A stretch of DNA of 64,000 nucleotides from Streptomyces sp. NBC_01197. Lineage in GTDB: Bacteria > Actinomycetota > Actinomycetes > Streptomycetales > Streptomycetaceae. Location: NCBI RefSeq assembly GCF_036010505.1, contig NZ_CP108569.1, forward strand, positions 6,650,001-6,714,000. The letters are read 5' to 3'. This document shows, in pieces, positions 53,288-64,000 of the stretch; the first letter of the stretch is position 1, and every line of letters begins with the position of its first letter. Both the position numbers and the translations under genes were made by a program. Under the pieces are notes generated by a model that had not been told where the DNA came from, made no database searches, and worked only from the letters and a program-made list of their open reading frames with translations.

Positions 53288-54862
53288 TCAGCCCCGCGCG
53301 CCGGAGTCCGCGCCGGAGCCCGCGCGGAGGGTGCTGCCGAGCGCCGCCCGGTCGACCTTGCCGTTGCCGTTCAGCGGCAGCGCATCCAGCCGGGTGAGGA
53401 CGGCGGGCACCATATAGGCGGGGAGGCGGTCGCGGAGCGCCACGCGGAGATCGTTCTCACTGCCGGCGGCCCCCGTGTAGGCGGCTGCGATCTCGGTGCC
53501 CGCCCGGGTCGCCAGCGCGACGGCCGCCGCGTCGCTCACGCCCGGCTGCACGCGCAACGCCGCTTCGACCTCGCCCAGTTCGACCCGGTACCCGTGCACC
53601 TGGACCTGCTGGTCGCTCCGCCCGATGTGCACCAGCGGCAGATCACGCGACCCGGCCGATTCGTCGGGCGGCAGCAGGGCGACGCGGTCGCCGGTGCGGT
53701 ACCAGTGCGCGTCAGTCAGAGCCGTGGCCGGATCGTACGGGGCTCCGTCGGCTTCCAGGAACCGGCCGGCGTTGTTGGCCGGGTCGAGATAGCCGGGGAA
53801 GCGCTGCGGGCCGCGTACGCACAGCTCGCTCCCGAACAAACGGTGTTCCATCCGGGGGTTGAGGGTGCCGATCGGCACGGTGCCGTTGGCGGGGGCCGGC
53901 CAGTGTTCCGGGTCATGGGGCAGCCGGTACGCGGTGCAGGTGACGGTCAGTTCGGTCGGGCCGTAGGCGTTCTCCAGGGAGCTGTCCGGGGCCGCCCGCT
54001 GCCACGCCCGCGCCTGCTGGAGCGTCAGTGGCTCCCCGCAGAACGTGCTGGCCCGCAGCGTCGGCATACTTCCGGGACCGAGCGCGCGCAGCCGCTTCGC
54101 GAGCGAGATGACCGACGGCACTGAGTTCCAGTGTGTGATGGCGTGCCGGTTGACGAAGCGGACCGGCGCCAGAAGGTCGGCGCGGGCCGGCACGACCAGG
54201 GCGGCGCCACTTCCCCACGCGGTGTACATGTCGAATACGGAGGGGTCGAAGGTCAGCTCGAAGGTCTGCGAGAAGCGGTCACCGGGGCCCGCCGAGCAGT
54301 GCGGTACGGCGTGGGCGAGGTAGGCGCAGATGTTCCGCTGCCGGACGGGGACACCTTTGGGGACCCCGGTGGACCCCGAGGTGAACATGATGTACGCGAG
54401 GTCATCGGGACCGGCCCCCGCGGCGGACGGCTCCGGAGCGGGGGAGCCCAGACGGCGGAGCAGCTCGCTGCCCGTCATCTGTGTGGTAAGCACGCCCAGT
54501 TGACCGGAGGGCTCGGCGGTACCGTCACTGAGGACCGCGTCGAGCGACGCCTGGCGCGCGATCCCGGCGTTGCGCTCGGCGGGGAACGCCGGACCGAGCG
54601 GGACCACGGCGGCACCGATGCGCTGGATGGCCAGGTATCCCGCGTAGGCGACGACGGTACGCCCGGCCAGCAGCCCCACCCTGCGCGGCGGCTTCCCGCC
54701 CCCGTCGCTGACCAGCACGTCGGCCAAGTGGCTAGCCAGCAGCGAGAGTTCGGAGTACGTCAGCTCGGTGCCGCCGGTCTCCAGCGCCGTACGGTCGCCG
54801 TGGACCGCGACCGAGGCCGCGAACCAGTCGTCGAGGGTGTGCCGCGGGGCGGGCATGTTCAC
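53288..54862 (-). CDS. Stand-alone amino-acid adenylating ligase
   Basis: A 524-aa NRPS-type adenylation protein without condensation or carrier domains. Core motifs in order: A3 MFTSGSTGVPKGVPV, A4 FELTFDPSVFDMY (the Asp that contacts the substrate amino group is present), A5 ENAYGPTELTVTC, A7 YRTGDRVAL, A8 GRSDQQVQVHGYRVELGEVE and A10 PLNGNGKVDRAAL. It should activate an amino acid with ATP and load it on one of the two carrier proteins encoded upstream. The GTG at 54862 is chosen because it overlaps the PPTase stop (GTGA) and has AAGGA six bases upstream. Last gene of the operon. Confidence 0.88.
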   Translation of the reverse strand: MNMPAPRHTLDDWFAASVAVHGDRTALETGGTELTYSELSLLASHLADVLVSDGGGKPPRRVGLLAGRTVVAYAGYLAIQRIGAAVVPLGPAFPAERNAGIARQASLDAVLSDGTAEPSGQLGVLTTQMTGSELLRRLGSPAPEPSAAGAGPDDLAYIMFTSGSTGVPKGVPVRQRNICAYLAHAVPHCSAGPGDRFSQTFELTFDPSVFDMYTAWGSGAALVVPARADLLAPVRFVNRHAITHWNSVPSVISLAKRLRALGPGSMPTLRASTFCGEPLTLQQARAWQRAAPDSSLENAYGPTELTVTCTAYRLPHDPEHWPAPANGTVPIGTLNPRMEHRLFGSELCVRGPQRFPGYLDPANNAGRFLEADGAPYDPATALTDAHWYRTGDRVALLPPDESAGSRDLPLVHIGRSDQQVQVHGYRVELGEVEAALRVQPGVSDAAAVALATRAGTEIAAAYTGAAGSENDLRVALRDRLPAYMVPAVLTRLDALPLNGNGKVDRAALGSTLRAGSGADSGARG

Positions 54863-55569
54863 GGTCTGTCCTTGTCGGATGTCGGAGTCCTGCCGGACGT
54901 TTCGGATCCGCACGCGCACGGTGCGGGTGGTGCGGCCGGTGCAGCCGCCGCAGTCGCTGCGGGACGCGCGGAGAACGCGCAGCTGAACGGGGTCCGTGAC
55001 CGGTCGCGCAGACTGATCCAGCGGTACACGCCCCAGTGGCCGTGCCGGGAGCCGGGGCGTACGTCGATGGCCCAGGGGCGGCCGGAGAGACCCGCGCCGC
55101 CGGCCTTCACGCACGCCTCCTGAACGGTCCACACCCAGGCGACCTCCTCGGCGGCCCGCTCCGGCGGCAGCGCGGTGACCCGGTCGGCGTGGCTGTGCAG
55201 TACCCGGCGGACGAACGGGGCCGAAACGGAGCCCGCCGGCTGCTGGAGATCCACCCCGACGGCCCGCCCGACGGCGACCCCGGCCGCGACCGCGCCCCCG
55301 CTGTGCGACACGCTGATGCCCACCCCGGGCAGCCCCTCGATACGGGGCCTGCCGCGCTCGTCCGGGATGATGCCGGCTCCGTCGGCAGCCGGGTGGACCG
55401 CGGCGATCAATCCGCGCAGAAGCCCCCGCCCGGCGAGGAATTCACCGGCACGCCATTCGGGCAGGAGGGCCGCGCGGCGCAGATCGTCCCGGTGGGTGCT
55501 CGGCGGGGTCCGGCCGGCGGCGGCCTCCGTCACCCAGACCCGGTCCGCGACCTCCAGCACGGTGTTCAC
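54859..55569 (-). CDS. 4'-phosphopantetheinyl transferase (Sfp type)
   Basis: A 236-aa Sfp-family enzyme that would prime the cluster's carrier proteins. Magnesium and CoA motifs are present in variant form: VGVDLQQP (usually GIDIE) and WVWTVQEACVKAGGAGL (usually WxxKEAxxKA). It also has the GVGISVSHSGGAVAAGVA segment. The GTG start overlaps the previous stop by GTGA; upstream readings in the same frame are non-coding in character. A dedicated PPTase in the operon supports both carrier domains being functional. Confidence 0.85.
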   Translation of the reverse strand: MNTVLEVADRVWVTEAAAGRTPPSTHRDDLRRAALLPEWRAGEFLAGRGLLRGLIAAVHPAADGAGIIPDERGRPRIEGLPGVGISVSHSGGAVAAGVAVGRAVGVDLQQPAGSVSAPFVRRVLHSHADRVTALPPERAAEEVAWVWTVQEACVKAGGAGLSGRPWAIDVRPGSRHGHWGVYRWISLRDRSRTPFSCAFSARPAATAAAAPAAPPAPCACGSETSGRTPTSDKDRP

Positions 55570-56699
55570 CGCAGTACGTCCGGCCGTGCGGGCTCGGCCA
55601 GGAGGCTCTCTGCGGCGTCGGCCAGCGCGCCGAGCACCACCTCGTTCGCGCCGCCGCCGATCCCGAACAGCGCGGCCTGGGCACGTACTTCCTGGATGCC
55701 GCCGGTGGTGAAGCCCGCGGCGCCCCACAGCTGCGCGCACTCGGCCAGCACCTCGCTGACGGTGGCGCCTGCGGCCGCCTTGAGCGTGGCGGCGGCCGTC
55801 GCGTCGTACCGGGACACCACGGACTCACCGAACTCAGCAACCAGCGCCTGGAGTTCGCGCAGCCGCAGCAGGCAGCGGGCGAACCGCTGGCGTACGGCGT
55901 CCAGGTCCCACAGGGTGCCGTCCCCGTGCGCGCGGGCGGCGAGATGGCGCTGGGTGTCCCGCAGGGTGCGGCGGCACAGGGACACGCCCCACTGCGCGCC
56001 GGCCAGCCGCTCGGTGGCGATATGGCGGGCGAAGAGCGGCAGTCCGAAACCGACCCGGCCCAGTACGTGGTCGCGCCCGACCCGTACACCGTCGAAGGTG
56101 AGGTGGCCGGCGCCCGAGTCCGCGAAGAGCGCCGATCCGGCGGGGGCCACGGCCACGCCCGGTGCGTCGGCGGGCACCAGGACCCAGGTGAAGTGGGTGA
56201 AGTGCCGCCCCGGACGGTGCCGGGCGAGGACGAGGTGGTGGCCGGCGGTGGTGGCGTTGGCGATCCAGTTCTTCCCGCCCGTCACCACCAGGGCGTCGTC
56301 CTCGATCCGCACCTCGGTACGCAGAGCGGTGAGATCGGTCCCCGCGGTGACGTCGCTCGCTGCCAGGGAGATCGCCGTCCTGCCCGCCAGTGCCTCTTCC
56401 AGGGCGGACCGGGCCGCGGGCGCCGTACCGGCGGCGAGGACCGGCAGCGCGGTGGCGAGCTGGACGCTCACCGACAGCGTGGCGGCGATGGAGAAGCGGG
56501 CGTCCACGGCGGCCAGCAGCCCGGCGAGGCCTTCGAGGTCGGCGCCCGCCCCGGCAGAGCCGTCACGGTAGGCGCGGGCGGTCAGACCGCCCAGGCCGAG
56601 CGCCGCCCAGACCCGGTCGCCGCCGGCCTCGGCGGGCAGCGCGTCGAGCGCGGTCCAGTCGGGGCCGCCCGGCCGCTCCCCTCGGGATGTGTCAGGCAA
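55566..56699 (-). CDS. Acyl-CoA dehydrogenase-like flavoprotein, first of pair
   Basis: A 377-aa acyl-CoA-dehydrogenase-fold protein. LAASDVTAGTDLTALRTEVR and VTGGKNWIANATTAGHHLVL form the central beta domain; FGIGGGANEVVLGALAD is the C-terminal FAD/catalytic helix region. The family's usual catalytic Glu position at that helix is not clearly filled, so dehydrogenation, hydroxylation or a structural role are all possible. Encoded between the second dehydrogenase (8-base overlap) and PPTase. Such enzymes in small clusters act on ACP-bound acyl groups, as in prolyl-carrier oxidation. Confidence 0.82.
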   Translation of the reverse strand: MPDTSRGERPGGPDWTALDALPAEAGGDRVWAALGLGGLTARAYRDGSAGAGADLEGLAGLLAAVDARFSIAATLSVSVQLATALPVLAAGTAPAARSALEEALAGRTAISLAASDVTAGTDLTALRTEVRIEDDALVVTGGKNWIANATTAGHHLVLARHRPGRHFTHFTWVLVPADAPGVAVAPAGSALFADSGAGHLTFDGVRVGRDHVLGRVGFGLPLFARHIATERLAGAQWGVSLCRRTLRDTQRHLAARAHGDGTLWDLDAVRQRFARCLLRLRELQALVAEFGESVVSRYDATAAATLKAAAGATVSEVLAECAQLWGAAGFTTGGIQEVRAQAALFGIGGGANEVVLGALADAAESLLAEPARPDVLR

Positions 56700-57870
56700 A
56701 GTTCACCCCCTGGTCCCGGAGCGCCAGCCGGCCGTCGGCGAGGTGGAGCCGGTCGTTGCTGTAGTTCAGCGCCGCCGAGCGCAGATCCCGCAGGGCGCGT
56801 TCGAGGTGGGTGGGGGAGTCCTTGAGATAGCCGTGCCGCAGTCCGAGCGCGGTGACCAGGCCGTCCACCGCCGCATGGCACTCGTCGGCGGCGGTGATCT
56901 TCAGCGAGTTGAGCAGCAGCTGACGGGCCGGGGCCGAGAGGTCATCGCCCGACTCCACCACTCCCAGCGCCCGGGTGAGCAGTGCGTGCACCGCCTCCAG
57001 CCGCTGCCGGGACCGGGAGATCCGGGAGAGCAGGAGCTCCGACGACAGGTCGAAGCGTTCGCGGCCCGCCGGGCTGCGCAGCAGACGCAGGACACGGGAG
57101 AGGGCGCCGGCCGCCGTGCCGAGCCACACAGCCGACCAGCCCAGATGGGCCAGCGGACCGAAGACCTGGGCGGCGATCTCGTGAAATCCGTCCTGCTCGC
57201 CCACCACTTGGCGGGCGGGCACACTGCCGGACAGCTTGAGCGGGCCGCTGTGACTGGCGCGCATACCCATCGGCTGCCACTCGCCCGAGCCGCTGATGTC
57301 GAGCTGACTCCGGTGCGCGTACACCAGGGACACATCGCTGTCGGTGACGGCGTCGGGGCTGCGCATCGTGATGAGGAAGCCGTCGGCGTACCCTCCGCCG
57401 GTCACGACCGGCGCGAACCTGTCGATCGCCAGCTGCCCGTCGCCGCCGGTCAACTGGGCCTGCGCGCTGAGCAGATGGCCGCCCTTGCCCGCCTCGGTCG
57501 TCACCGACGCCAGATAGATCCCGCCCTTGGCGATGGCCGGCAGCAGCTCGTCGCGGAGCACCCGGCCGCCGTACCGGACGATGGCTTCGGCCTGCTGGCA
57601 GTGCATCGCGAAGATCATGCCCACCGACATGTCGCTGCGCCCCAGCGTCTGCGCCGCTGCCACCAGGTCCGCCACGGTGCCACCGAGCCCGCCGTGCGAG
57701 GCGGGCACCATGAGTCCGAGCAGACCGGTGCTGCGGAGGGCGTCCAGCGCCTCGACGGGGAACTCCGCGTCCCGGTCGGTCCGCGCGGCGTGCTCACCGG
57801 TCACCGCGGTCACCTCCGCGAGCGCGGCCGTCAGGTCCAGCCGTCCGTTCGGCGCGGGCTCCGTACTCAT
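56692..57870 (-). CDS. Acyl-CoA dehydrogenase-like flavoprotein, second of pair
   Basis: A 392-aa acyl-CoA-dehydrogenase-fold protein. LGLMVPASHGGLGGTVADLV at the N-terminal helical domain, VTTEAGKGGHLLSAQAQLTG and WQPMGMRASHSGPLKLSG in the beta domain, and YSNDRLHLADGRLALRDQG at the end. The MGMRAS segment is typical of acyl-CoA dehydrogenases and related flavin monooxygenases. The ATG overlaps the ACP stop (ATGA), tying expression to the carrier protein. It probably forms a heteromeric pair with the next gene product. Confidence 0.82.
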   Translation of the reverse strand: MSTEPAPNGRLDLTAALAEVTAVTGEHAARTDRDAEFPVEALDALRSTGLLGLMVPASHGGLGGTVADLVAAAQTLGRSDMSVGMIFAMHCQQAEAIVRYGGRVLRDELLPAIAKGGIYLASVTTEAGKGGHLLSAQAQLTGGDGQLAIDRFAPVVTGGGYADGFLITMRSPDAVTDSDVSLVYAHRSQLDISGSGEWQPMGMRASHSGPLKLSGSVPARQVVGEQDGFHEIAAQVFGPLAHLGWSAVWLGTAAGALSRVLRLLRSPAGRERFDLSSELLLSRISRSRQRLEAVHALLTRALGVVESGDDLSAPARQLLLNSLKITAADECHAAVDGLVTALGLRHGYLKDSPTHLERALRDLRSAALNYSNDRLHLADGRLALRDQGVNFA

Positions 57871-58130
57871 GCGCCCACCCGACCCGCGGCTCCGTCGGGA
57901 AGCTGCGCGGAGATCACGCGCCAGAGGCTGCCCGCGGTGGCGAACGTCGTGTCGTTGAGCTCCTCGTCCGGCAGGGAGATCGCGAAGGCGTCCTCGACGG
58001 AGAACAGCAGCTCGATGGCCTGCATCGAGTCGACGCCGAGCCTGCGCAGATCCGTGTCGGGGGTGATGACGACCTCGGGCCCGGCGTTCTTCAGGAAGGG
58101 GCGGAGCAGTTCGGTGAATCGGGCGTCCAT
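57867..58130 (-). CDS. Acyl carrier protein
   Basis: An 87-aa free-standing carrier protein with the canonical phosphopantetheine site LGVDSMQAIEL (Ser35) and the FAISLPDEELND helix II-III segment. It should carry the amino-acyl group made by the adenylating ligase. The ATG at 58130 follows GGAGCC/GGGAGG sequence; the stop overlaps the next dehydrogenase ATG. Confidence 0.92.
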   Translation of the reverse strand: MDARFTELLRPFLKNAGPEVVITPDTDLRRLGVDSMQAIELLFSVEDAFAISLPDEELNDTTFATAGSLWRVISAQLPDGAAGRVGA

Positions 58131-58168
58131 GGCGGGAGCCTCTCGTGGGAGGGATGGGGAGGATGGAG

Positions 58169-59335
58169 TCAGCGGGCGATGCGGCACAGGTCGTCGACCC
58201 TGCGGAGGTTCTCCGGTACGAGGTCGGCGGCGGCGAACTCCGTCCCGAGGCTGTCCTCAAGCCGTTCGACGATCTCGATCAGCCGGAAGGAGCCGAACGA
58301 GGCGAACGAGTCGAAGGCCGCACCCGCGAGCAGTTCGGCCTCGGGGACGCCGAGCACGGAACCCGCCACGGCCGCGACCCGCAGGCGCAGCGCCTCGTCC
58401 GGCGCGGCACGGGGCGCGGACGGTTCGGCGTGGATCTCCAGGTCGGCCGCGAGTACCTCGCGCAGGCGCTCCACGAGCAGCGGCGGTTCGGCCCGGCCCC
58501 GCGAGACCCGGCGGTGGGCGAGATACGTCTGCTCGACGACCTTGTCCCAGGCGCGCAGCTGCGCCTCCTCGGCCTCGCTCGTGGCGGAGCTGCCGGAGAA
58601 GAGCTCTCGGTACTTCGCGTGCAGGCGGCGGCCGCGGGCCAGCAGCCAGGTCTCCACGGTGAGTTGCCCGACGGCGCGCGCCCGGTCCGGCCAGGTCTCG
58701 TACGCGCCGAGGTACTCCCGTACCGCGTCGTCGCCCGCCGTGAGCACGGGCGGCAGCGCGGTGAGCGGCGGCAGGTCTCCCGCGACGATCTCGACGGCGT
58801 CGGCCGGCCCGATGTCCGCCAGATCCGCGTCGGAGAGGACCCAGCGGCCGGGCACCGCCGGCCCCCAGGTCGTCTCGCTGCGGTAGGCGTCCGTGATGTG
58901 CCAGCCGTCCGGCCCCGCTGCGAGCAGGAAGCTGTGCTCCATGTGCGCGTGCCCGTGGTACGGCAGCCAGGGCAGCCGGAACGAGTCCGCGATCACATAG
59001 TGCGTGGAGCCGCGCCGGACGACGGCGTCCTGCAGTTCGGACCCGGACAGCCGCTCACGCCGCGCCGTACGCAGTCCCAGCACTCCGGGCAGCACGCTGA
59101 GCAGCTCGTCCGGCGGGGGTTCCACCGTCGGCAGCCCGTCGGCCCGCTCCCAGGTGCGGAAGTCCAGGGCCGCCCCGGCCCGCAGATGGGTCCCGGCGCC
59201 GTGGTGGTGGTCCGCCAGTACGGCCAGATTGACCTGCACACAGTCCAGCAGGCCGGTGTGGACCGAATCGAAGTCGAAGTGCTCCGGCCCACCGGGGCGC
59301 GGGGCGCCCGTACTTGGTATGTCCGTGTCCGCCAT
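58169..59335 (-). CDS. BtrH-type acyltransferase fused to a C-terminal ACP-like domain
   Basis: A 388-aa protein. Residues about 20-310 resemble the butirosin BtrH family (papain-like acyltransferase): candidate Cys in TGLLDCVQVNLAVLADHH, His in HAHMEHSFLLAAG and Asp in GWHITDAYRSE. BtrH moves an acyl group from an ACP to an aminoglycoside amine. Residues about 318-388 look like a carrier domain whose site reads GSFRLIEIVERLE (Ser349), with Gly in place of the Asp that normally precedes the modified Ser. I infer transfer of the ACP-bound acyl chain to an amine acceptor. The start is supported only by a distant AAGGA. Confidence 0.72.
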   Translation of the reverse strand: MADTDIPSTGAPRPGGPEHFDFDSVHTGLLDCVQVNLAVLADHHHGAGTHLRAGAALDFRTWERADGLPTVEPPPDELLSVLPGVLGLRTARRERLSGSELQDAVVRRGSTHYVIADSFRLPWLPYHGHAHMEHSFLLAAGPDGWHITDAYRSETTWGPAVPGRWVLSDADLADIGPADAVEIVAGDLPPLTALPPVLTAGDDAVREYLGAYETWPDRARAVGQLTVETWLLARGRRLHAKYRELFSGSSATSEAEEAQLRAWDKVVEQTYLAHRRVSRGRAEPPLLVERLREVLAADLEIHAEPSAPRAAPDEALRLRVAAVAGSVLGVPEAELLAGAAFDSFASFGSFRLIEIVERLEDSLGTEFAAADLVPENLRRVDDLCRIAR

Positions 59336-59409
59336 GTCCGCTCACATTCCTTGACTCATCGGTCTCTGCCGCCCCGGCCTGCGCCCGGCTCCCCGTCCGC
59401 CGCCCCCGG

Positions 59410-60123
59410 TCAGAGCCACGGCGGGAGTACGGGGAGTGCGGCCGTCGAGGTGAGGCCCGTCCCGCCCGACCGGCCCGCCAGCCAGGCGAGCGCGTCCGCG
59501 GATGTGCCGGTGACGGCCGGGCCGCCCGTGCCGAACCGGCCGAGCAGGTCCCCTCCGGTGTCGCGCAGGGTGAAGTCCGGTACGCCCTCGGCTTCGGCGT
59601 AGTAGCCGAGCACGTCGGCCAGGATGATCTGCCGCGCCGACGCGGGGACGCCGTCCCACCCGTAGCCGATGTCCAGGTCCACATGGTGCAGTTCGAGTTC
59701 GCGCAGCCGGATCACCAGAATCCGCTGCGGGGTGCAGAGTTCACCCGTGAAGGGCCTGACCGTCGCCTGCCACGCGGCGGCGGGCAGCGTTTCGATCACC
59801 TGCTGGAAGTGCGCGGCGCTCTCCCGGACATCGGCCAGCTGGACCGCGGCGGGACGGCCTGCGCCCGCCTCGATCTCGGCGTCGCGGGCCCTGCGGTCCG
59901 GGTACTGGGGAGTCTCCACCCCGGTACGGGCCCACTCCAGCAGCCGTTCCAGCGCGGGGGCCTGGCGTGCCAGATGGCTGAGGACATGGCCGCGGGTCCA
60001 GCCGGGCAGCCGGGAGGGCTCCGGGACGTCCCGGTCGCGGAGCCCGGCGAGCCCGGCCATCAGCCGGTCCGCCGCGGCGGCGATCTCCTGGAACGACTCC
60101 TGGGTGGGAGCGATCTCCTTCAA
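59410..60123 (-). CDS. Mycothiol-dependent maleylpyruvate isomerase fold protein
   Basis: A 237-aa DinB/MDMPI-type protein. Metal ligands are visible: His in GWTRGHVLSHLARQ (about 46-50) and Glu/His in RLRELELHHVDLD (about 142-150). Family members are mycothiol-dependent isomerases or transferases. The start codon is TTG, supported by GAAGGAG five bases upstream and a four-base overlap with the aminotransferase stop. In this operon it may catalyse a thiol-assisted isomerisation or conjugation step. Confidence 0.82.
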   Translation of the reverse strand: MKEIAPTQESFQEIAAAADRLMAGLAGLRDRDVPEPSRLPGWTRGHVLSHLARQAPALERLLEWARTGVETPQYPDRRARDAEIEAGAGRPAAVQLADVRESAAHFQQVIETLPAAAWQATVRPFTGELCTPQRILVIRLRELELHHVDLDIGYGWDGVPASARQIILADVLGYYAEAEGVPDFTLRDTGGDLLGRFGTGGPAVTGTSADALAWLAGRSGGTGLTSTAALPVLPPWL

Positions 60124-61442
60124 CGGGACTCCTTCGGCGTGCTGTCCGGTGGGGTACGGCGCGATGAACGGTGGGGCGGCCGGGTGAGCCGGGCGAACCC
60201 TTCGGCGATGGTGGACAGCGCGGCCGCGATGTGCGGCAGGCTCGCCGGGTCATCGGCCAGCAGCGCCTCGTGCTGCTGCCGCTCGTCGCCGTACAGCAGG
60301 CTGGTGGCCGCCTTGAACCTCAGGGCGTGCGGCCGGTCACCGAGCAGATGACCGCCCAGGACGACGATCCCGGAGTCGTCGAGCAGCCGGGTCGCGAGGG
60401 ACGCCGAGTCCGTGATGCCGTGCGCGGTCAGCCGGTCGCGCAGCGGCTCGAAGTCCGGATAGACGTAGAACCCGCCGACGGGCGGCCGGCACTCGGCGCC
60501 CGCATCGACAGCGATCCGGTGCACCGCCCGCGCCACGGCGCCGTGCAGCCGGGCGCTCGCCCGCTTCCTGGCGACGATCTCCGGGGGCTCCGCGAACGCG
60601 TACTCCGCGACCTGCTGCATCGGCCCGGCGAGGGTCGACCACAGCTCGCTGGCCGCGGCGGCCACGGAGTCCCTCAGCAGCTCACCCGCCTCGCCCACGG
60701 GGAACCGCGCGGCGCCGATCCGCCAGCCGCCGAGCCCCAGCGTCTTGGAGAGACCGGTGGTGACGACGGTGCGCTCAGGGGCCACATCCGCCGGGCTGAG
60801 GAAGGGCGTGGCCCGCGGGTCGTGGACGATGTCGCGGTAGATCTCGTCGGAGACGGTCAGCAGGTCCTCGTCCCGCGCGATCGCGCAGATCTCTCGGACG
60901 GCGGCGGGCGGCGCGAGCGTCCCGGTCGGGTTGTCCGGCAGGGTCAGTACCAGCAGCCGGGGGTCTCCGCCGGTCAGTCTGGCCCGCCGGATCGTCTCGC
61001 GCAGCGCGCCTGGCTCCGGCATACCGCCGTACTCCCGGGGGATCGGCACCCCGAAGACCTGCTTGCCGGCGTACGCGGCCTGCGGCGCATAGGTGTTCCA
61101 GGCGGGCTGCGGCAGCAGCACATCGCCGGGGACCGCGAGCTGTACGGCCATCAGCAGCGGCTTGCTGCCGGGGCCCACCACGATCCGGTCGGCCTCGGTC
61201 GGCAGCCCCCGGCGGGCGAAGTACCCGGCCACGGCCGCCCGCACGCTGTCGGCGCCCGCCACCGGGCCGTAAGCGGAGCGGGATGCGCCGATGGCCAGCT
61301 GCTCGGCGAGCTGCGGCAGCACCGGCAGTCTGGCCTCGCCGAACGCCAGGTGGATCAGGGTGTCCCCCTGCGCCCTGCGCCGGTCCACCAGTTGGTTCAG
61401 CGCCAGGTTCGGGGAAGGCGGTGCGAACGTCACGGCGGTCAT
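60120..61442 (-). CDS. Class I/II PLP-dependent aminotransferase
   Basis: A 440-aa fold-type I aminotransferase: LPDNPTGTLAPP, SDEIYRDIVHD and the PLP lysine in TGLSKTLGLGGWRIGAARF. The C-terminal Arg in HALRFKAATSLLYGD fits carboxylate binding. It overlaps both neighbours by four bases (ATGA with the radical SAM gene, TTGA with the MDMPI gene). The substrate is unknown; an amino- or oxo-acid intermediate of the pathway is expected. Confidence 0.87.
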   Translation of the reverse strand: MTAVTFAPPSPNLALNQLVDRRRAQGDTLIHLAFGEARLPVLPQLAEQLAIGASRSAYGPVAGADSVRAAVAGYFARRGLPTEADRIVVGPGSKPLLMAVQLAVPGDVLLPQPAWNTYAPQAAYAGKQVFGVPIPREYGGMPEPGALRETIRRARLTGGDPRLLVLTLPDNPTGTLAPPAAVREICAIARDEDLLTVSDEIYRDIVHDPRATPFLSPADVAPERTVVTTGLSKTLGLGGWRIGAARFPVGEAGELLRDSVAAAASELWSTLAGPMQQVAEYAFAEPPEIVARKRASARLHGAVARAVHRIAVDAGAECRPPVGGFYVYPDFEPLRDRLTAHGITDSASLATRLLDDSGIVVLGGHLLGDRPHALRFKAATSLLYGDERQQHEALLADDPASLPHIAAALSTIAEGFARLTRPPHRSSRRTPPDSTPKESR

Positions 61443-62821
61443 GTCCGATTCCTCTCCGGCTGCCCGTGCGCGCGGTCACCCGCGGGGCCAGGGAGCCCGG
61501 CACCGCCCGGGGTGGCGCCGCGTACGGCCGCCGCGATGTCGGCGGGGGTCGATGGGTCGATTTCGAGCTCGTCGAGCCACGCGGCGTCCGGCGAGTAACG
61601 GGCCCGGAACGGCCTGCCCACCAGCGCGGGATCGCGCGCCTGGAGCATCCGCAGCCGGAAGAACGCGCCATCGGGCGTGTCCTCCACACCGTCGACGACG
61701 ACCTTGCCGGGCGTCGCCGACATGACGGGCCCGCGCACCGTGCGGGCGAGACCGGGCAGGGTGCGGTACGCCTCGGTGAAGATGTCCACCGCCCTGGCGA
61801 GCGGCACCTTGAAGTAGTCGTACGGTCCGGTGTCCCGCTCCACGAACAGGTAGTAAGGCACAGCCCCGGCCGCCAGTTCCGCACGCCACAGCTCGCTCCA
61901 CACCCGGGCGTCGTCGTTGACGTGTCCGATCAGCGGGGCCTGGCAGTAGACGACGGCGCCGGTGGCCCTGATCCGGGCCACGGCCCGGCGCGCGAGGTCG
62001 TTCTCCAGCTCGCGCGGGTGGCTGAAGTGCGCCATCACGGCGAGCTGCCGCCCGGACGCCACCACGGACTCGAAAAGCCGCAGTACGTCGTCGGCGTCCG
62101 GGTCGGTGACGTACCGCTGCGGCCAGTAGGCGACGGACTTGGTCCCGATCCGGACCGTACGGACGGACTCGACGCCGAGCAGCGGTCCGATGTGGCCGCG
62201 CAGCCGGTCGGTCGACATCACCATTGGGTCGCCGCCCGTGACCAGGACGTCGTGCACCTCGGGATGGCCGCCCAGGTACTCGATCAGACCCGACGGGTCG
62301 GGGGCCGCGAAGCGCAGATCGGCGTCGCCGATGAACTGCGCCCAGCGGAAGCAGTACGTGCAGTACGCGTGACAGGTCTGTCCCTGGCCGGGGAAGTAGA
62401 GCACCGTCTCGCGGTACTTGTGCTGGAGGCCGGGCAGCTGGACGCCCTCCTCGCTCGGCACGTTGAGCTGCTGCTGGCCGGACGGATGCGGGTTGAGCCG
62501 CTCGCGGATCTCGCGTACGGCCTCGCGGAGCAGGAGCTTGTCCGACGGGTCGCCGGAGAGCTTGGCGAGCTGCTCCTCGTCGGAGCGCGCCAGCATGCCG
62601 CTCTGCGGGAACGTCAGCTGGAACATGGGGTCTTCGGGGGCCCGGTCCCAGTCGATGAGGTGCGACAGCACATATTCGTTGACCCGGAACGGCAGCACGA
62701 GCGACACCCTGCGCACGGTCTCCGTGATGTCTTCGGGCAGCCCGAACCGCTGGGCGATGTCGTCGATATGGCGTGGCCCGAACGCCCGGAACCTGTCGGG
62801 ATCCCTCCGGTCGGCCGGCAT
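61439..62821 (-). CDS. KamA-family radical SAM protein (aminomutase-like)
   Basis: A 460-aa radical SAM/PLP enzyme of the lysine 2,3-aminomutase family. The cluster motif is C150-x3-C154-x2-C157 (CHAYCTYCFRW), the SAM-contact motif is VTGGDPMVM and the likely PLP lysine is K373 in MSATPGKVVVDG. The two Asp that bind the lysine side-chain amine in clostridial LAM appear as Glu/Arg (FVERDTG) and Ser (VMSATPG), so the substrate may not be lysine. It should shift an amino group from C2 to C3 of an amino acid, or run related radical chemistry. The ATG overlaps the carbamoyltransferase stop by one base. Confidence 0.82.
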   Translation of the reverse strand: MPADRRDPDRFRAFGPRHIDDIAQRFGLPEDITETVRRVSLVLPFRVNEYVLSHLIDWDRAPEDPMFQLTFPQSGMLARSDEEQLAKLSGDPSDKLLLREAVREIRERLNPHPSGQQQLNVPSEEGVQLPGLQHKYRETVLYFPGQGQTCHAYCTYCFRWAQFIGDADLRFAAPDPSGLIEYLGGHPEVHDVLVTGGDPMVMSTDRLRGHIGPLLGVESVRTVRIGTKSVAYWPQRYVTDPDADDVLRLFESVVASGRQLAVMAHFSHPRELENDLARRAVARIRATGAVVYCQAPLIGHVNDDARVWSELWRAELAAGAVPYYLFVERDTGPYDYFKVPLARAVDIFTEAYRTLPGLARTVRGPVMSATPGKVVVDGVEDTPDGAFFRLRMLQARDPALVGRPFRARYSPDAAWLDELEIDPSTPADIAAAVRGATPGGAGLPGPAGDRAHGQPERNRT

Positions 62822-64000
62822 CAGACCGGGCCTCCTGTCCGGTTCGGTTTGCGGTACAGCTCGTCGCCCAGCACCAGGAAGTCGAGGTCCATGGAGCGGA
62901 ACGCCTTCACCGCGTCGGCCGCGGTGTTGACGACGGGCTCGCCCTTGTCGTTGAAGGAGGTGTTGAGCAGCACCGGGGGGACGCCGTTCCGCCGCAGGCC
63001 GTCCAGGGCCGCTCCCACCGCCGGGGCCTCGTCGCCGCGCAGCACCTGCGGGCGGGTGGTGCCGTCGACGTGCACGACACCGGGCGCGACACTGCGGCCC
63101 AGCCCGGTGGCTCTGGCAGCGCCGAGCATGTAGCGGCTCAGATGCTCCTGCTGCTCCCAGAGCAGGGCGCCGTAGTCGGGCCGGGTGACCCCCGCGAAGG
63201 GGCGCCACTGCTCACGGTTCTTGATGGAGTTCACCCGGGCGTGCACCGCCGCGGTGTCGGGTACGGCGATGATCGACCGGCGGCACAGCGCACGCGGCCC
63301 GACCTCGGCCCGGCCCTGGGCGACCGCGCCGACGTGGCCGTCGATGAGCAGTGCGGTCAGCTCGTCGATATCGAGATCGCTGCGGAGCAGACCCGAAGTG
63401 TCCGGTGTGCCGGGACCGTTGGTGTGGTCGTAGCCGTGGATGTCGGTGCCCAGATAGGGGCTGAGCACCCCGGTCCGCCGCTTCGGCGGCCGTACGGTCC
63501 AGGCGGCTCCGAGCGCGACGCCCGCGTCGTGCGGCACCGGCGGGACGTACAGCGGACCGGGGAGCGTGCCGTTGGTGCTGCAGTTCAGCGCCACGCCGCC
63601 GCTCATGCAGAGCTGTTCGACACCGGACGTCTTGCGGGTCAGCGCCGCGAGATGGCTGACGGTCTCCTCGATGAGCCGCTGCGCGGTGTAGGCGACGAGA
63701 ATCGCGTGGGGATCCTCGGTGAGCGCCTCTTCCGGGGCGCTCGGCGCGCCGGCGCCTGCGATCCGCGTGTAGCGGTCCCGCCACCGGGCGACGGTCGTCT
63801 CGTACTGCTCCTTGATCTCGTCGGCTGTGGCGTGTCCTGTGCTCTCCACCAGCGGCTCGACGGCCAGCCGGAAGTCGTCGGCCCCGATGTCGACCAGCGA
63901 TTCGACGTCGAGCCCCGCGGCGCGGCCGTACGCGGCGAGACCCATGGTCTTGCCCGCGTTGAGGAAGGAGAAGCCGAGCCAGGTGGACGCGGCGTCGTAG
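62821..64000 (-). CDS. Carbamoyltransferase (NodU/CmcH family), N-terminus beyond window
   Basis: The C-terminal 393 residues of a NodU/CmcH/TobZ-type carbamoyltransferase. Visible are CMSGGVALNCSTNGTLPG, QGRAEVGPRALCRRSII, the KNREQWRPFAGV segment and FNDKGEPVV. The frame stays open to the window edge (upstream codons read YDAASTWLGFSFLNAGKTMG), so the N-terminal Kae1-like part lies to the right. The family makes carbamoyl-AMP from carbamoyl phosphate and ATP and transfers it to a hydroxyl. It predicts an O-carbamoyl group in the cluster's product. First visible gene of the operon; more cluster genes are likely beyond 64000. Confidence 0.88.
   Translation of the reverse strand, partial: YDAASTWLGFSFLNAGKTMGLAAYGRAAGLDVESLVDIGADDFRLAVEPLVESTGHATADEIKEQYETTVARWRDRYTRIAGAGAPSAPEEALTEDPHAILVAYTAQRLIEETVSHLAALTRKTSGVEQLCMSGGVALNCSTNGTLPGPLYVPPVPHDAGVALGAAWTVRPPKRRTGVLSPYLGTDIHGYDHTNGPGTPDTSGLLRSDLDIDELTALLIDGHVGAVAQGRAEVGPRALCRRSIIAVPDTAAVHARVNSIKNREQWRPFAGVTRPDYGALLWEQQEHLSRYMLGAARATGLGRSVAPGVVHVDGTTRPQVLRGDEAPAVGAALDGLRRNGVPPVLLNTSFNDKGEPVVNTAADAVKAFRSMDLDFLVLGDELYRKPNRTGGPV

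Follow-up and report, generated by a model that had tools for sequence, protein, structure and literature searches.

In the part of PMC11284099 that deals with macrolactam starters, a beta-amino acid is placed on a stand-alone acyl carrier protein (ACP), alanine, serine or glycine is added by a VinM-type enzyme that forms the amide on the already loaded beta-aminoacyl-ACP, and transfer by VinK is followed by deprotection by VinJ. The same part presents IdnL4 of the incednine pathway as a proposed glutamate aminomutase, the in vitro activity of which was not observed, and IdnL3 as the enzyme that decarboxylates beta-glutamate. In the dehydro-beta-alanine pathways, the section on bolagladin in PMC7756342 reports that deletion of bolQ, encoding an acyl-CoA-dehydrogenase-like (ACAD-like) protein, gave dihydro-bolagladins with the beta-alanine analogue, leaving a later-stage desaturation open, and the section on AFC-BC11 in PMC12186527 argues that an enamine left unprotected might isomerise and break down, and describes Z as well as E units. 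Here we compare these systems with an operon of ten minus-strand genes at 53288-64000 of a 64,000-nucleotide window from Streptomyces sp. NBC_01197 (positions 6650001-6714000 of its 7.7 Mb genome), which carries the gene families assigned to it in an initial annotation of this stretch.

The operon has the loading and amide-forming parts in common with the macrolactam starter genes (vicenistatin VinN/O/L/M/K/J; incednine IdnL1/L3/L4/L7), whereas in place of a polyketide synthase (PKS), VinK and VinJ it offers two ACAD-fold flavoproteins, an amide synthase fused to an ACP, an ATP-grasp ligase, a condensation protein and a carbamoyltransferase. Neither a VinK-type acyltransferase, a VinJ hydrolase nor a PKS was found by Pfam domain among the operon proteins. 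A carrier-bound beta-amino acid is also shared with the dehydro-beta-alanine pathways (bolagladin, AFC-BC11, autucedine/enamidonin), and bolagladin and AFC-BC11 combine N-acylation with a proposed ACAD-like desaturation, as we propose for the window; those two, however, start from aspartate through VinN/VinO- or BtrK-like enzymes with KAS III-like enzymes involved, whereas the window would use a KamA route. With moderate confidence we propose that the operon encodes a PKS-free pathway built on the logic by which macrolactams obtain their beta-amino-acid starter, in which (S)-3-aminobutyryl-ACP would be capped, oxidised, moved to an amine, ligated and carbamoylated.

In the proposed scheme the KamA-family radical S-adenosylmethionine (SAM) enzyme would convert L-glutamate, by a shift of its amino group, to beta-glutamate, which a pyridoxal phosphate (PLP) enzyme would decarboxylate to (S)-3-aminobutyrate. 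A second adenylating enzyme, AMP2, would then load 3-aminobutyrate on the stand-alone ACP, primed by the 4'-phosphopantetheinyl transferase (PPTase), and the adenylating enzyme within the window, hereafter the in-window ligase, would couple the beta-amino group with an alpha-amino acid. The N-acyl beta-aminoacyl thioester would be oxidised by one of the ACAD-fold flavoproteins or by both, an N-acyl-3-aminocrotonyl enamide being the likeliest outcome; the lability described for an unprotected enamine would be a reason for VinM-type capping before this step. The papain-like synthase-ACP fusion would pass the unit to an amine, and the ATP-grasp ligase, the condensation protein and the carbamoyltransferase would finish a small carbamoylated peptide-like product. 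A protein of the mycothiol-dependent maleylpyruvate isomerase family (MDMPI) may fix the geometry of the double bond or act on a mycothiol adduct, and as Z and E units are both reported for AFC-BC11, such an E/Z role is conceivable. The computation itself shows which genes are present and in what order, their family likeness, the conserved residues and the mutual exclusion of the entry genes; what each enzyme acts on, the order of the steps, the choice of desaturation over oxygenation, the amine that accepts the unit, the site of carbamoylation and the product are our inference.

The operon is more than a chance association, as its gene order is kept in all 14 loci of its own type that were found. 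The BtrH-ACP protein has matches in 40 of 392 genomes of the genus (E<=0.001, some of them weak), and a scan of one genome per species across 84,980 species gave 88 relatives, the best 80 of which were taken as loci (L068-L147); their genes were counted by tblastn at E<=1e-10 over ~10 kb on each side, some loci ending at contig ends. The nearest named locus is in Streptomyces sp. NBC_01306, where the BtrH-like protein is 91% identical. Among the 80 loci ACAD1 occurs in 76, the ACP in 74, ACAD2 in 70, and the PPTase and the ligase in 65 each. KamA is present in 26 and a VinO-like decarboxylase in 43, never together, and this mutual exclusion (one-sided Fisher p 1.1e-12, relatedness uncorrected) fits two entries to one beta-aminoacyl-ACP chemistry.

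Type I, to which the window belongs, comprises the 14 loci with KamA, the PLP enzyme and the carbamoyltransferase; the ATP-grasp, condensation and AMP2 genes are likewise present in 14 of 14, and VinN-like and VinO-like genes are absent from all of them. Three type I loci miss one gene each: MDMPI was not found in L072 and L078, and the ligase of L069 lies past the contig end. In two further loci (type I') KamA and the carbamoyltransferase are accompanied by a glutamine synthetase instead of the PLP enzyme, and ten loci (type III) have KamA and the PLP enzyme without the carbamoyltransferase; L079, counted among these ten, belongs to type I and is truncated, its contig starting inside KamA. 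In the 43 type II loci a VinO-like decarboxylase and a VinN-like adenylating enzyme, both present in every one, replace KamA. The remaining 11 loci are other or incomplete, with no KamA and no decarboxylase gene in the stretch covered; in one of these (L089) KamA lies ~12 kb from the BtrH gene.

For the KamA protein (61439-62821) Pfam gave nothing at E<=0.001, and its placement comes from NCBIfam TIGR00238 (2.1e-33, 115.7 bits, below the cut-off of 199.2). Its CxxxCxxC motif and PLP lysine are present in 25 of 25 sequences, and in alignment with its only PDB sequence match, lysine 2,3-aminomutase (2a5h), the positions of D293 and D330 are occupied by R and S in 25 of 25, the D330 position being placed by hand. 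We take D293 and D330 to be the substrate-binding aspartates of the lysine enzyme, and glutamate 2,3-aminomutase presumably has Lys and Asn there. Judged from these residues KamA probably acts as a glutamate 2,3-aminomutase like IdnL4, a likeness drawn from the description of that enzyme. The earlier view that KamA supplies a beta-amino acid agrees with its homology, whereas the idea that this acid is a separate unit gives way to one in which KamA probably feeds the ACP, glutamate being a likelier substrate than lysine. Beta-lysine chemistry of the streptothricin or tuberactinomycin type was set aside on the same residues. The adjoining PLP-dependent aminotransferase-fold enzyme (60120-61442) keeps the PLP lysine in 25 of 25 and could be the beta-glutamate decarboxylase that yields (S)-3-aminobutyrate, the role described for IdnL3.

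A plasmid of Streptomyces sp. NBC_00334 (L148, 37476-42770) also has a KamA/PLP pair like that of the window, accompanied by a proline-iminopeptidase-like hydrolase and an IdnL1-like enzyme; the group stands amid large type I PKS genes. The KamA, PLP enzyme and AMP2 of our cluster are 75%, 65% and 56% identical to their counterparts there, and the best match of the IdnL1-like enzyme is IdnL1 itself (618.7 bits). The locus is probably a linear-plasmid macrolactam cluster of the 3-aminobutyrate type. The same KamA subfamily (52%) occurs on plasmid pDK3 of Rhodococcus sp. DK17 (L047, 11968-18774) beside cupin, SidA-like N-hydroxylase, class I tRNA-ligase-like and saccharopine dehydrogenase-like proteins, a set that we take to be that of N-N bond pathways.

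The initial annotation had the in-window ligase (53288-54856) load the ACP, a role that its best matches no longer favour; the likely loader is AMP2, which is encoded beyond the window end and divergently from the operon (68794-70698, plus strand). In the PDB AMP2 matches HitB (592 bits), IdnL1 (565.5) and CmiS6 (560.7), the next protein following at 304.3, and by these matches it is a member of the IdnL1/HitB/CmiS6 class of beta-aminoacyl-ACP synthetases, entries of which, HitB (7dq5) and IdnL1 (5jjq) included, are identified as such in a part of PMC11253843. Its pocket code, DFLNLCCACK, agrees with that of IdnL1, DFLNLSCAAK, at 8 of 10 positions including residue L220. The code of locus L127 is identical to that of IdnL1, L072 and L078 have the code of the window minus the last position (L072 also with one A for C), and the codes from nine type III loci vary at two positions; the type I' code is DLFNLSSSCK. 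For the adenylating enzyme of the type II loci the match is to VinN (3wvn, 384 bits).

The in-window ligase has its two best PDB matches in 8k4r (305.9 bits) and 6akd (283.4), followed by linear gramicidin synthase 6mfy (280.7, two domains summed). We take 8k4r to be VinM and 6akd to be IdnL7, and by these scores the ligase resembles the amide-forming enzymes of that type. Homologues of the ligase (38-43%) are present in four of six PKS-bearing Streptomyces loci with VinN/VinO-like genes (L216, L217, L219, L221) and were not seen within the stretch examined in the other two.

The earlier claims of carrier-bound chemistry and of ACAD-like flavoproteins adjoining the ACP are borne out by homology and fold. 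The stand-alone ACP (57867-58187, PF00550; its start is possibly the ATG at 58130) has Ser54 in 61 of 61, and the PPTase (54859-55569) reaches 25.4 bits against a PF01648 cut-off of 25. Of the two flavoproteins, ACAD2 (55566-56699) has a glutamate, E230, in 69 of 69, which we take to be the isovaleryl-CoA-dehydrogenase-type glutamate, and its best NCBIfam match is the prolyl-PCP dehydrogenase model (71.3 of 650 bits). Proline-to-pyrrole logic (PltF/PltE) was set aside, as the adenylating enzymes are VinM-like and IdnL1-like. ACAD1 (56692-57870) was assigned by family and fold matches; ColB1, which dehydrogenates tethered cysteine, and the DszC-type monooxygenases share its ACAD fold at 18-21% identity, and a survey for ACAD1 among 100 relatives gave 13 matches but nothing decisive. 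It has no glutamate at either classical base position, and an oxidase, a monooxygenase and a partner subunit are all candidates for its role.

The protein at 58169-59335 would be a papain-like carrier-protein-dependent amide synthase of the CtaG/CcbD/BtrH type with a C-terminal ACP. CtaG (closthioamide), CcbD (celesticetin), AziU3 (azinomycin) and BtrH (butirosin) form amides from a carrier-bound acyl group. The protein had been called a BtrH-type acyltransferase-ACP fusion; the Pfam BtrH model (BtrH_N) is not matched even at E<=10 by three members, whereas the predicted fold, that of CtaG, CcbD and AziU3 at 11-17% identity to solved structures, and a conserved Cys-His-Asp triad (C32/H134/D149) agree with the description. 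Order and fold, not a superposition of residues, served to match the triad to C11/H128/D144, the residues changed in the CtaG variants, and the likeness to BtrH comes by way of the CtaG, CcbD and AziU3 structures, not of BtrH itself. Fold and triad are common to the window protein and the four known enzymes, the difference being that the former is fused to its own ACP. By homology and predicted fold only, a carrier-dependent amide synthase that would transfer its unit to an amine is supported, as first suggested. The MDMPI protein (59410-60123) matches TIGR03083 at 103.6 bits against a cut-off of 50, has H50/E142/H146 in 15 of 15 and is encoded in 12 of the 14 type I loci.

Several results weigh against the 3-aminobutyryl-ACP pathway proposed above. 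KamA falls far below every equivalog cut-off, that of glutamate 2,3-aminomutase TIGR04368 included (82.9 of 650 bits), and scores higher with the lysine model (102.8 bits) than with the glutamate model; the R at the D293 position is kept in distant KamA relatives (52-58% identity) and so marks the whole subfamily, which is no proof of glutamate by itself. The AMP2 code is not identical to that of IdnL1, by score AMP2 is slightly nearer to HitB, and codes were readable in only 2 of the 14 type I loci (L072, L078). The margin by which the ligase prefers IdnL7 to linear gramicidin synthase is small (283.4 against 280.7 bits, the latter over two domains), and its code, DPFNTCAVTK, differs from the DCFFFALITK or DCFFFALVTK of its homologues in the four macrolactam-type loci, which suggests a different amino acid. 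ACAD1 is devoid of both known catalytic bases, and the link between the window flavoproteins and BolQ, compared by description, is unproven: no ACAD1 or ACAD2 match was found in open reading frames within ~10 kb of six Burkholderia VinN-like loci (35-39%), none at phmmer E<1e-3 within ~30 kb each way of four of them, and no Pfam ACAD N-domain match within 60 kb of those four. That these Burkholderia loci are bolagladin or AFC clusters is a guess. Enamidonin-type loci (L207-L211) have VinN/VinO-like genes and no ACAD1- or ACAD2-like gene within ~10 kb; KAS III genes, also looked for there, are present only in L211.

The missing bases of ACAD1 and its kinship in fold to DszC lend themselves to an unlikely, though not negligible, variant of the scheme in which the same beta-aminoacyl-ACP would be oxygenated, ACAD1 acting as a DszC-like C- or N-hydroxylating monooxygenase and the new hydroxyl serving the carbamoyltransferase; ACAD2, with its invariant E230, stands beside ACAD1 in this operon. 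We find it rather improbable that the PLP enzyme is a true aminotransferase and that beta-glutamate or another derivative is loaded in place of 3-aminobutyrate. Its NCBIfam and PDB matches, GntC and the aspartate/DAP aminotransferases, point that way, whereas loci with the PLP enzyme have an AMP2 of IdnL1-like code and the two KamA loci without it have another, and the KamA/PLP pair recurs beside PKS genes on the NBC_00334 plasmid. Somewhat more doubtful still is a route in which KamA would make a separate beta-amino acid such as beta-lysine, the in-window ligase would charge the ACP with an amino acid, both then being joined: the PDB sequence match and the model scores of KamA lean to lysine and the ligase is also like ordinary amino-acid adenylation domains, yet both lysine-binding aspartates are replaced throughout, the two best matches of the ligase are of the VinM type, and AMP2 is of the beta-amino-acid class with L220 of IdnL1.

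It seems very improbable that the operon supplies a starter for a PKS encoded elsewhere in the genome. Homologous starter genes do adjoin PKS genes in macrolactam-type loci, both in those found here and according to a part of PMC11284099, and a ketosynthase (KS)-type match lies within ~10 kb in 6 of the 80 loci, all of type II. Within the same distance none of the 14 type I loci has such a match, and the operon proteins include no acyltransferase domain or VinJ-like hydrolase by Pfam. Returning to the PKS-free pathway, we suggest, more tentatively than for the window itself, that it is one branch of an actinobacterial PKS-free family making carrier-bound N-aminoacylated beta-enamino acids with an exchangeable entry module, either glutamate through KamA and a decarboxylase to 3-aminobutyrate or aspartate through VinN/VinO-like enzymes to beta-alanine, the branch of the window giving 2,3-dehydro-3-aminobutyrate with release by the amide synthase-ACP and a mycothiol isomerase setting E/Z.

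The ten genes, as the initial annotation had them, mostly overlap; gene calls and family searches agree with it, and six of the nine junctions overlap by 1-8 bases. A seventh, between the PPTase and the ligase, overlaps if the start is the GTG at 54862 and otherwise leaves a 2-base gap. The window end truncates the operon inside the gene for an O/N-carbamoyltransferase of the NodU/CmcH family (PF16861/PF02543), the 3' part of which occupies 62821-64000 and which extends to ~64500 (L010:821-2500). Beyond it, on the strand of the operon, follow a tandem ATP-grasp ligase with two ATP-grasp regions (64530-66989) and a condensation-domain protein with an HHIAAD motif (67219-68475), so that the initial statement that no condensation domain is present does not hold for the operon as a whole. 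A major facilitator superfamily (MFS) transporter (70751-71986, plus strand) adjoins AMP2; it is a candidate member of the cluster by a 67% copy beside a remnant locus in Streptomyces sp. CB02959 (L074, 7851-11128). There a 97-residue fragment of the condensation gene directly precedes an open BtrH-ACP gene, and of the other cluster genes only the transporter was found; the locus resembles what a deletion would leave of a type I cluster. The cluster of the window ends, on its low side, with the stop of the ligase gene at 53288, as the next genes (OYE, S9 peptidase, isochorismatase) are common only to the nearest relative, L068, among the 14 type I loci, L069 ending at this point.

Other features of the wider set of loci were noted. 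A PALP-type PLP enzyme forms a second recurrent module in 34 of the 80 loci (e.g. L067, 10570-18531; many are of type II or III), accompanied by an ACP in 31, an aldehyde-dehydrogenase-like protein in 30, a thioesterase in 21, a nonribosomal peptide synthetase (NRPS) in 18 and a short-chain dehydrogenase/reductase (SDR) in 11. A conserved protein of ~345 residues, u345 (L059, 16711-17748), which has no Pfam match at E<=0.001, occurs in 49 of the 80 loci and in none of the 14 of type I. One genome carries two modules of VinN-like, VinO-like, ACP and ACAD1 genes without BtrH (L215, L218), one beside a YcaO protein and an ABC transporter and the other beside a carbamoyltransferase and a radical SAM-SPASM protein; these may be hybrid pathways that use the same unit. 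A type II cluster on scaffold 58 of Burkholderia multivorans WS-FJ9 (L094), 45-72% identical to actinobacterial proteins, is either contamination or a recent transfer.

The single enzyme types of this operon are all known, whereas their combination and the predicted unit are new to us. Among the matches listed in the open-access full-text literature there was no described cluster or product with this gene set, nor a natural product with a 2,3-dehydro-3-aminobutyrate unit; the macrolactam-cluster survey of PMC10662134, in the part concerned with its search, had a PKS protein among its queries. According to parts of PMC7756342, PMC12186527 and PMC11204786, the known dehydro-beta-alanine compounds include an iron-binding lipodepsipeptide, an antifungal N-acyl peptide and antibacterial lipopeptides, and a part of PMC10880069 states that beta-enamino acids alter peptide conformation and can switch between E and Z in light. 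Our proposal names concrete candidate substrates, i.e., glutamate, 3-aminobutyrate and N-aminoacyl-3-aminobutyryl-ACP, with a product mass signature of minus 2 Da, and groups dozens of loci, for none of which a described product was found, into one family with an exchangeable entry module. If it is true, macrolactam starter chemistry would run without a PKS and be coupled to a CtaG/CcbD-fold amide synthase.

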